From assembly GCA_013288705.1 (NCBI GenBank), contig JABDBI010000002.1, forward strand, positions 64,880-119,452: a stretch of 54,573 nt of DNA, read 5' to 3'. This document shows, in pieces, positions 4,294 through 7,570 of this stretch; positions within the stretch are counted from its first letter, which is position 1, and each line of letters starts with the position of its first letter. Source of the stretch: Methanobacteriota archaeon. GTDB taxonomy: Bacteria; Myxococcota; UBA727; JABDBI01. Made by a program: the position numbers and the translations under genes. The notes under the pieces are model-generated. The model saw nothing but the letters and a program-made list of their open reading frames with translations. It did not search any database and was not told the origin of the DNA.

Positions 4294-4599
4294 ATGTCGG
4301 CAGCAATTGATGAACTAACAGTTAACTGGGAAGAAGACGGCCAGCTCAAAGTCAAAGAGGTTGCCAAACACGTGCTTTCAAAGGGTGCTTGGGCCACTGT
4401 GATGTTTTTGTATGTGGAGATGGACCCGCAGACCAAGGAATACCGAGATCCCAAAATCAGTATTCGGCGGTATCGCAAGCGCGGCGATCAATATATGTTC
4501 CAGTCAAAGTTCAACATTTCGTCGGCTGCTCAGGGCAAAGAGATCGCGCGCATGATTCATGAGTGGTACAAAGACGGCGATGGGGAATCGGCGGAATAG
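4294..4599 (+). CDS. Conserved hypothetical protein (small, basic C-terminal half)
   Basis: 101 residues, 18 bases after rplC, preceded by AGGCAGGA at ribosome-binding distance. No named domain. The central stretch LSKGAWATVMFLYVEMDP, then SIRRYRKRGDQY and SKFNISSAAQGKEIARMI, resembles from memory a small uncharacterised protein common in deltaproteobacteria. The fold looks alpha/beta with a basic patch. Being in line with rplC suggests co-transcription, but no function is claimed. Its last 96 bases overlap the 3' end of the convergent TreY-like gene. Confidence 0.7.
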   Translation: MSAAIDELTVNWEEDGQLKVKEVAKHVLSKGAWATVMFLYVEMDPQTKEYRDPKISIRRYRKRGDQYMFQSKFNISSAAQGKEIARMIHEWYKDGDGESAE

Positions 4600-6120
4600 T
4601 GTGGCTGCCGAGATGAATTTTCGGTTGAACACAAAAGTCTCGCCGCTTAAGTAGCAGGTCCATTCTCGCGGCGAGTTTTTGGGCAAGTTCAGCGCTGTTT
4701 TTTGCCAAAATTCTGAGTCAAATCCAAGTTTGTGACGTGGCCGCAAATGGGAAATCCATCGGGGTACTGCAACAATCACGGCAGTTCCCTGATACCTGCG
4801 CATGAATCCAATCAGATGATTCCTGCTCTCTCCGGAGAATGAAAGCGGTACATAATCGCCCCGCATAAATAGATCTTCCGAGGAGCGACGCAACGCAAGT
4901 AACTTGTGCGCGAGGTCGAGTTGCATGTCATCGAGGCAGGGCGTTTGTGGCGACAGAATTTGCAGCGTCAGCATAGACGTCTTGTTGATTTCGGCAAAGA
5001 AGCTGACTCTCTTTTTTTCGATGAACTCGGACGCTAGATCGAGCGAAATGCCATCTTCTATAAGAGGCTGCTCACCGACGATGTTCAGCGCAAGCGATTG
5101 TAGCTTCCCCCGCGTTTTGTTAAGCAGATGAAAGTGCCTCACGGCGTTTCCCGGAGCTGGGTGTCCTCGTAGATGCAGGTGTCGCCTACGCAGCGTGCGC
5201 AACCCATCCGGATGCACGAAAAGCTGCAAGGCAGCTTGCGTCCACTGCGCGTCGGTATCGCAAGGCGAGTCATTCAATACCTGTAAGGTTCCATGAGCAG
5301 AATCACTGAGTTGATTGAGCTTCGCTGAACTATTGACGTTGATTGGTAGTTGAAAAACGTCAGCAGGGGATGGTTCCCCGACGAGGCTAAAGTGCTGTTG
5401 ATCGAGAAGCGCCCATAAAAAGTTTGCACCACAAGCGCTAAAAAAGTTCTCAAAGACCCGAAAACGATTTGGGCTAGCTGATATCCACCTGGACAATTCA
5501 ATCTTGAGTTCTTCGATCCCTGCAAACTTTCTGAGCACAGCAAATTCAAATTTGGCGCTGATAGCCAAAAGCGCGTCATATTCTTCTTTGCGCACGATGG
5601 GTCTCGCGACCGAAGCGTAATAGACCTGATTGAGAATCTCGGCGTAGGTATGGAGTGCAATTGGCAACCGATGTTTTTTGTAGCTGAAGAAGAACAGATG
5701 TTTGGCGTTGCACTGCAAACGCAGCTTTCCCGCGCAAATCGATCCTTCGATGGGCTCTTCAAGAATAGGTGATGCAATGGGTAGCACCGTGCCCCGAATC
5801 CGAGGAAGGTCAAAGAGGGCAAGGTGCTTTGATAGCATTCCCCTCTCAAGTACATCTCGCCAGTATGGGTTGTCGATCGAAGCTTCCAAAAAAGGCGGGG
5901 CCGGATTGGTGAGCAAGCCCATAGATGGATTTTGCTTTGCCAATCCATGCAACAGTTCGCGCAGCTTTTTTTCGCCACCTAGCTTATCGCTGACCTTGTT
6001 GAAATCGGCTCTCGAAAGAAGCTCAGAGATATGCAAATGGGAGAAGTGGTTTGCTAACCACCCGAGGTCTTGGGCAGGAAAATCCTTCAGCTTATAAACT
6101 GCGGTTGGGTTTTTTAGCAT
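4504..6120 (-). CDS. Degenerate maltooligosyltrehalose synthase (TreY) homologue lacking catalytic residues
   Basis: 538 residues; TreY enzymes (GH13) are usually 700 or more. Family landmarks run in order: the YKLK start (9-12), LGGE (47-50), NPYWRDVLERG (84-94), LLDQQHFSL (238-246), HPDGL (303-307), LLALRRSSEDLFMRGDYVPL (407-426), AVPRW (451-455) and EWTCYLSGETF (486-496). The active site is gone. HGYD and DxxPNH are deleted or replaced. The nucleophile Asp of RIDHPDGL is Val302 in LQLFVHPDGL. The acid Glu of VEKIL is Leu345 in ALNIV. The PGVPDxYQGxE segment and the region after it are deleted. The frame is open throughout, so it is not a fresh pseudogene. ATG 6120 lies inside the end of dacB (29-bp overlap). 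The last ~18 residues pass the normal TreY end and overlap the convergent small gene. Homology is read by eye. Confidence 0.75.
   Translation of the reverse strand: MLKNPTAVYKLKDFPAQDLGWLANHFSHLHISELLSRADFNKVSDKLGGEKKLRELLHGLAKQNPSMGLLTNPAPPFLEASIDNPYWRDVLERGMLSKHLALFDLPRIRGTVLPIASPILEEPIEGSICAGKLRLQCNAKHLFFFSYKKHRLPIALHTYAEILNQVYYASVARPIVRKEEYDALLAISAKFEFAVLRKFAGIEELKIELSRWISASPNRFRVFENFFSACGANFLWALLDQQHFSLVGEPSPADVFQLPINVNSSAKLNQLSDSAHGTLQVLNDSPCDTDAQWTQAALQLFVHPDGLRTLRRRHLHLRGHPAPGNAVRHFHLLNKTRGKLQSLALNIVGEQPLIEDGISLDLASEFIEKKRVSFFAEINKTSMLTLQILSPQTPCLDDMQLDLAHKLLALRRSSEDLFMRGDYVPLSFSGESRNHLIGFMRRYQGTAVIVAVPRWISHLRPRHKLGFDSEFWQKTALNLPKNSPREWTCYLSGETFVFNRKFISAATLFRRFPIAVFVPLMNHARDLFALSSRRNVEL
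4639..4680 (+). terminator. Probable rho-independent terminator after rplC and the small gene
   Basis: A perfect 8-bp stem CTCGCCGC (4639-4646) / GCGGCGAG (4668-4675) with a 21-nt loop, followed directly by TTTTT (4676-4680). It lies 40 bases past the stop of the small gene, inside the opposite-strand TreY-like gene. The loop is longer than typical. Confidence 0.5.
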
Positions 6121-7570
6121 CTTCGACGAGGAGGGCTAGAATTTTCTCTTGTAGCGCTAGATACGGCGATTTCGCCCCGGTGAAACCGTTGACCATGATG
6201 GCGAATGCAAGAATATCCCCACCCGGGGTGGTAAGATATCCTGCGAGAGAACTTACTCCAGAAAGCGAGCCGGTCTTGGCGCGGATTTTCCCTCTCATGT
6301 CCTCCTGTGAGAATCGGGTCGCTAGAGTTCCATCGAGGCCGGCAAGCGGCAGTGACGCGATAAACTCCGGAGCGATATGAAAGTCATTCCACGCGTAGAG
6401 CAACAGCTTGACCATTTGGGTAGGACTCATCAGGCTATAGCGTGATGCACCAGACCCATCGGCAACCGACGCGTGCTTCAGGGAAACACCAGCATTATTA
6501 CGGAGGAAACTCTGCACAGCTTCAAGCCCACCATCAAATGTCCCAGGCAATGGTCCAGTCTTGGCACCCATGGTTTTGAGCAAGCATTCCATTCCGTGGT
6601 TGTTGGAGGCTTTCATGAAATCAATGAGCATTTCGCTCATCTGGCGTGAAACGTGTTCTGTTAACCTTACTGTTTGCTGGGGTGTTTTCTCGACGCGGAT
6701 ATTTCCGTTAAAACGAATTCCCGCTGCTTTGAGCTTCTCTTGCAAAATGTGGCCAGCGAACAGATTGGGATTTGAGACTGCGAACGTTTTATAGACGGGT
6801 GCAGCATCAACAGGGAGTTCACCGCTGATATCGATGGCATCATGTTTTATGAGTCCCTGTTGCTCAGCAGTGGTAACGCGGAGGTCATTTAAGTTTTGTG
6901 ATGTTTTGGCTTTGACATCAAGTCGAATAAAATTAGAGTAGGGTTCGAAGATAGCCTGTACTTTCTCGCCCACGCGATTGCCCGGATTGACGCGCACGAC
7001 AAAGCGATTTTGATTGACGTTAACGCCGCTGATTGGGGCAGAAAACCCATGGGAAGCGTCGTCCCACATCCAGCCATTGCCATAATAGACGTCGTCAAAG
7101 ACGCTTGCATCGATCACGATATCGCCTTCGATATTCTTGACTCCGAGCTGCAGGAGCTCATGGGCGAGCGTTGCCAAATCCATGTCGGTGAGTGTGGGGT
7201 CACCTTGGCCAATCAGAAACAGATCCTGAACGATGTGCTTCTTGCGATTGAACCCTTGGGTGGCAAGCTTGGTGGTATAGCGAAAACCGGGGCCGAGGTT
7301 TTGCAGTGCTGCAGCAGCGGTTACCAATTTCAGCGTGCTCGCTGGCGTATAGAGCCGATCGGCATCGTGCGCGTAAATCACCTGGCCGGACTGCACGGAA
7401 CTGATTAGCACACCGATATGCGCATTTTGCCCTTCTGTTGCGATCCAGGAATCGATTTGGTTGACCAACGAATTTCCAGCAACAGGCGGTACGGGCTTTG
7501 GCCGCTCATATTCGCTTGTTGTTTTGCAAGCAACCATTATAAGCAGTAGTATCAATATGAAATGTTTCAT
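6092..7570 (-). CDS. dacB: D-alanyl-D-alanine carboxypeptidase/endopeptidase (PBP4, peptidase S13), probable lipoprotein
   Basis: Periplasmic peptidoglycan-trimming enzyme. 492 residues, typical for DacB. A hydrophobic N-terminus ends in VAC (Cys15), so a lipoprotein signal is likely although -3 is Met. Penicillin-binding-protein motifs are the nucleophile STLK (Ser78, Lys81), SNN in the KASNNHGME stretch, and KTG in IRAKTGSLSG. A large insert domain separates the first two motifs, as in class C PBPs. It is transcribed divergently from the DASS transporter (15-base gap) and overlaps the downstream TreY-like gene by 29 bases, suggesting translational coupling. Confidence 0.93.
   Translation of the reverse strand: MKHFILILLLIMVACKTTSEYERPKPVPPVAGNSLVNQIDSWIATEGQNAHIGVLISSVQSGQVIYAHDADRLYTPASTLKLVTAAAALQNLGPGFRYTTKLATQGFNRKKHIVQDLFLIGQGDPTLTDMDLATLAHELLQLGVKNIEGDIVIDASVFDDVYYGNGWMWDDASHGFSAPISGVNVNQNRFVVRVNPGNRVGEKVQAIFEPYSNFIRLDVKAKTSQNLNDLRVTTAEQQGLIKHDAIDISGELPVDAAPVYKTFAVSNPNLFAGHILQEKLKAAGIRFNGNIRVEKTPQQTVRLTEHVSRQMSEMLIDFMKASNNHGMECLLKTMGAKTGPLPGTFDGGLEAVQSFLRNNAGVSLKHASVADGSGASRYSLMSPTQMVKLLLYAWNDFHIAPEFIASLPLAGLDGTLATRFSQEDMRGKIRAKTGSLSGVSSLAGYLTTPGGDILAFAIMVNGFTGAKSPYLALQEKILALLVEDAKKPNRSL

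Follow-up and report, generated by a model that had tools for sequence, protein, structure and literature searches.

The open reading frame (ORF) P0001, which encodes 538 residues on the minus strand of the window (the whole stretch of DNA analysed, 54,573 nucleotides), descends from the maltooligosyltrehalose synthase TreY and, as judged from its sequence, has lost catalysis. We favour the reading of P0001 as a selected non-catalytic derivative of TreY over that of a recently abandoned gene, and consider it on balance probable that this former enzyme, presumably cytoplasmic, has been retained at least for a time. The ORF and its parts are located as follows:

4504–6120, minus strand: TreY-derived ORF P0001, 538 residues, open frame; TIGR02401 match with E = 5.7e-32, below the cut-off.
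5548–6006, minus strand: N-terminal conserved block, residues 39–191 (TreY profile positions 58–210); 57 bits, i-Evalue 1.5e-19.
5887–5907, minus strand: site of the active-site motif DIVPNHM, now NPAPPFL (residues 72–78), lacking 5 of the 6 residues that are nearly invariant in TreYs.
4927–5547, minus strand: degenerate or deleted catalytic core, residues 192–398; shuffle-like score against the TreY core profile, pLDDT below 50 over residues 240–358.
5200–5214, minus strand: HPDGL, putative remnant of the nucleophile motif (residues 303–307), with the Asp replaced by Val302.
4567–4926, minus strand: C-terminal conserved domain, residues 399–518 (TreY profile positions 827–947); 95 bits, i-Evalue 4e-31, pLDDT mostly 85–96 with a TreY alignment.

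The descent from TreY is indicated by profile and database searches. TIGR02401, the NCBIfam model of TreY, matched P0001 with 110.9 bits, below its cut-off of 498.65 bits, and a profile of 951 positions built from 47 TreYs, which were drawn by intact TreY length from 80 fetched loci, gave 154 bits in two ordered blocks. The best matches in a sequence search of the PDB were maltooligosyltrehalose synthases, one of them at E = 2.5e-6. The Pfam GH13/alpha-amylase model did not match P0001, and the only match to another family, to CARD in Pfam (E = 0.09), was spurious and was rejected; no family matched better than TreY. The homology to TreY and the 538 open codons of the original prediction are thus borne out. 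Its description of P0001 as a full-length homologue does not hold: the profile recognises only residues 39–191 and 399–518, and the intact TreYs of the comparison set have approximately 780–1,100 residues. Within the first 38 residues of P0001, PTAVYKL resembles PxATYRL (by eye only). In a tree of the flanking blocks, the P0001 branch has a length of 2.06 compared with a median of 0.55 (approximately four times), and its placement is unresolved, with support of approximately 0.65–0.68.

The approximately 617 TreY positions between the two blocks correspond to 207 residues in P0001. TreY landmarks had been predicted to run from the first block to the last, which is not the case in this region: against the profile of the TreY core, the P0001 core (residues 192–398) scored −1.7 bits, a value equalled or beaten by 62 of 2,000 shuffled sequences, and two multiple alignments (A1 and A2) disagree on its placement. 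The three GH13 catalytic carboxylates fall in the region matching the P0001 core according to the motif positions established for GH13 and to the aligned TreYs. The loss of catalysis appears safe because the missing region holds all three carboxylates. The catalytic Asp, Glu, and Asp of GLRIDHxDGL, VEKIL, and THDTKR were not recognised in P0001, and neither the alignments nor the TreY profile revealed an EKIL-type, THDTKR, or DxYQG/DPDNRR block. Outside the core, the HGYD loop is absent in the alignment with TreYs and DIVPNH reads NPAPPF. The VPNH-type, HGYD, and DxYQG motifs are gone, as predicted. The open and partly conserved protein might be taken for an enzyme that has stayed active after its active site was rearranged, which is extremely improbable given that not one of the three catalytic motifs can be recognised, that VPNH and HGYD are lost, and that the genes for substrate supply and TreZ were not found (see below).

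The only credible remnant of the core is HPDGL (residues 303–307). The pattern H.DGL, present in 47 of 47 TreYs, occurred by chance in 0.3% of core shuffles (approximately 0.003), and HPDGL itself in 0.02% (approximately 2e-4). The remnant supports the predicted position of Val302 in the slot of the nucleophile Asp, with a mapping that is not secure, the alignments placing the region differently; nothing supports the prediction that Leu345 occupies the position of the acid Glu. HPDGL also stands in the right order, which argues against a single recombination event that swapped the treY core for unrelated coding DNA and left a chimera with a new middle domain. Such a chimera would agree with a core that scores like shuffled sequence between clear flanks; we consider it improbable, since DIVPNHM and HGYD, both lost, are not part of the core, and the core, which is predicted to be disordered, has no Pfam family. 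Compensated frameshifts in the core were rejected on the basis that the two other frames of the same strand have no TreY similarity.

Structure prediction with AlphaFold and an alignment of 38 TreYs yielded a model of mean pLDDT 64, in which residues 360–530 were mostly confident, the N-terminal block was moderate, and residues 240–358 were below 50. The alignment feeds into the confidence of this model, which is therefore not independent proof of folding; the single-sequence model (mean pLDDT 33) was uninformative. The best PDB match to the model in Foldseek was a TreY (3hje, E = 1.2e-4), although the two structures fit poorly overall (TM 0.31). This poor fit and the disorder predicted for the core speak against the reading of P0001 as a retained protein. 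A complete (β/α)8 barrel is not present in P0001, and the predicted preservation of the scaffold was too strong a statement: most of the (β/α)8 core is gone or unrecognisable.

The reading frame of P0001 has the character of coding sequence. Its 538 codons contain no stop, each of the five remaining frames contains 16–29 stops, with the plus strand full of them, and the chance of a 538-codon open frame at the local base composition is approximately 2e-11. The GC content at the three codon positions (0.56/0.39/0.54) is that of coding sequence here and is similar to that of the neighbouring genes. Among the real genes of the window, P0001 has one of the lowest codon-usage scores (0.04 per codon), which is nevertheless well above those of two spurious-looking ORFs in the window (−0.10 and −0.17). 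Inspection by eye revealed no obvious Shine-Dalgarno sequence upstream of P0001 and no signal peptide.

Conservation of the flanks is concentrated where TreYs are most constrained. Among the 270 aligned flank positions, P0001 keeps 24 of the 31 columns that are at least 90% conserved in TreYs, and retention falls with column conservation, to 11 of 82 in the variable columns. Five of the 7 losses among the nearly invariant columns are located in DIVPNHM (Fisher p = 0.0007, a descriptive value, as the motif was singled out after the losses were seen). Outside this motif, P0001 retains 23 of 25 invariant columns; of all columns conserved to at least 90%, intact TreYs retain 96% on average. This conservation could also have been inherited from the period in which the enzyme was active.

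These features bear on the reading that P0001 is a treY undergoing decay as the genome shrinks, in which OtsAB sufficed, the core deletions happened to be in frame, and the decay is too recent for a stop or frameshift to have arisen. We regard this reading as possible and, on the whole, unlikely. The weak codon-usage score and the long branch agree with it, as do the overlaps with both neighbouring genes and the run-on ends of the ORF described below. Against it stand a core that diverged past recognition with no stop, for which the chance is approximately 8e-5 over 207 random codons (the length of the core), flanks that keep nearly all invariant residues, and at least 3 separate active-site changes, all in frame. 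In a neutral simulation of the ORF, the chance that no stop had arisen was 6% at 0.05 substitutions per site and less than 1% at 0.1, frameshifts being uncounted. A core changed past recognition beside intact flanks is not predicted by uniform neutral decay.

P0001 overlaps a gene at each end:

6092–7570, minus strand: dacB-like PBP4 gene (Peptidase_S13; TIGR00666, 2.6e-100), upstream, with a 29-nucleotide overlap with the start of P0001.
4294–4599, plus strand: conserved gene of 101 residues, convergent, with a 96-nucleotide overlap with the 3′ end of P0001; residues 1–93 are 74–82% identical in four members of the family.

The start codon of P0001 sits within the last codons of dacB, and the conservation of dacB relative to its closest relative (in genome G006) stops at approximately residue 478, approximately five residues short of the overlap. 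At the other end, the TreY homology (to residue 518, approximately position 4567) nearly meets the end of the conserved part of the 101-residue gene (approximately position 4572), and P0001 continues past residue 518 antisense to that gene, which is without a Pfam family. The spacers on either side of P0001 seem to have disappeared through deletions that would have halted where its conserved parts end. That both of these ends survive favours retention. The 29-nucleotide overlap with dacB looks like gene compaction. In G006, dacB and a divergent DASS symporter gene adjoin as in the window and no TreY-like gene follows; such a gene was also absent after the dacB copies seen in G002, G004, G005, and G007, and a dacB-treY operon common to these relatives was rejected. 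The envelope link that the coupling to dacB had suggested is therefore not supported, given the closest dacB locus, the compaction-like overlap, and the lack of a visible signal peptide. A second dacB-like gene in the same genome (L155, contig C40) is 33% identical to that of the window.

The source genome (assembly of 1.63 Mb, 74% complete) belongs to a family of small genomes; the family includes genomes of 1.1–1.8 Mb, and two (G001 and G003) are approximately 0.3 and 0.5 Mb and are listed as 87–91% complete. OtsA and OtsB are encoded close together on one contig. TreZ, one of the genes that the original prediction had proposed to look for elsewhere, was not found in this 74%-complete genome, nor were GlgB and GlgX, which like TreZ are GH13 proteins; the only GH13 found there is oligoglucosidase-like by eye. 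Glycogen phosphorylase (GlgP) was found in none of the eight family genomes. The presence of an OtsA/OtsB route to trehalose, together with these absences, counts in favour of a retained non-catalytic derivative. The small genome and the missing TreZ, GlgP, GlgB, and GlgX are also in line with a decaying treY. Another locus of this genome (L153:8202-12116, contig C30) contains two adjacent large ORFs of 787 and 509 residues, which have similar leader-like N-termini ending in a double glycine (KLTEKELTEVAGG and ELTEKELSKVAGG) and no Pfam match above the curated cut-off.

The original prediction had proposed to look for the same catalytic losses in related genomes. Neither the 16 genomes of the order, nor the 195 of the phylum, nor the named genome collection yielded a relative with these losses; the matches in the phylum were all partial, to apparently ordinary TreYs. 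That the gene occurs in this genome alone of those searched also agrees with decay. The claim of a pseudoenzyme instead of a random pseudogene thus draws support from the open frame, the losses centred on the active site, and the invariant flank residues kept outside the motif; it is not proven, since no genome searched has a relative that shares these losses.

In the favoured reading of P0001 as a selected non-catalytic derivative, the genome would no longer need TreY chemistry, and selection would keep a binding surface made up of the C-terminal β domain and the subdomain-B-like N-terminal part. This surface would most plausibly bind an α-glucan or a protein that partnered the ancestral enzyme. 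The barrel core would then have been free to change and to shrink in frame. P0001 might even represent a new type of GH13-derived protein, a suggestion we make with considerable doubt, in which a TreY C-terminal domain and a subdomain-B-like part are joined by a flexible degenerate linker in place of the barrel, and which would bind glucan or protein beside the OtsAB trehalose route. Should the protein be produced, it would clearly exemplify a TIM-barrel enzyme that loses its core while its accessory domains are still selected, a process rarely caught in a single gene; if the gene is dying, it would be an example of ordinary genome reduction. The library searched contained no literature that joins TreY with pseudoenzymes.

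Compared with TreY (GH13_26, EC 5.4.99.15, TIGR02401), P0001 has an N-terminal block and a C-terminal domain that align at TreY positions 58–210 and 827–947. Unlike TreY, P0001 is shorter, lies far under the family cut-off, has a catalytic core and catalytic motifs that are all absent or unrecognisable, and has no TreZ partner among the genes found in the 74%-complete genome. Non-catalytic GH13 homologues exist, for example the animal SLC3 heavy chains 4F2hc and rBAT. P0001 resembles these proteins in its GH13 origin, in being without the catalytic residues, and in a possible binding or scaffold role. By contrast, the barrel of 4F2hc and rBAT is still recognisable and both are anchored in the membrane, whereas P0001 is derived from TreY and has lost most of the barrel.
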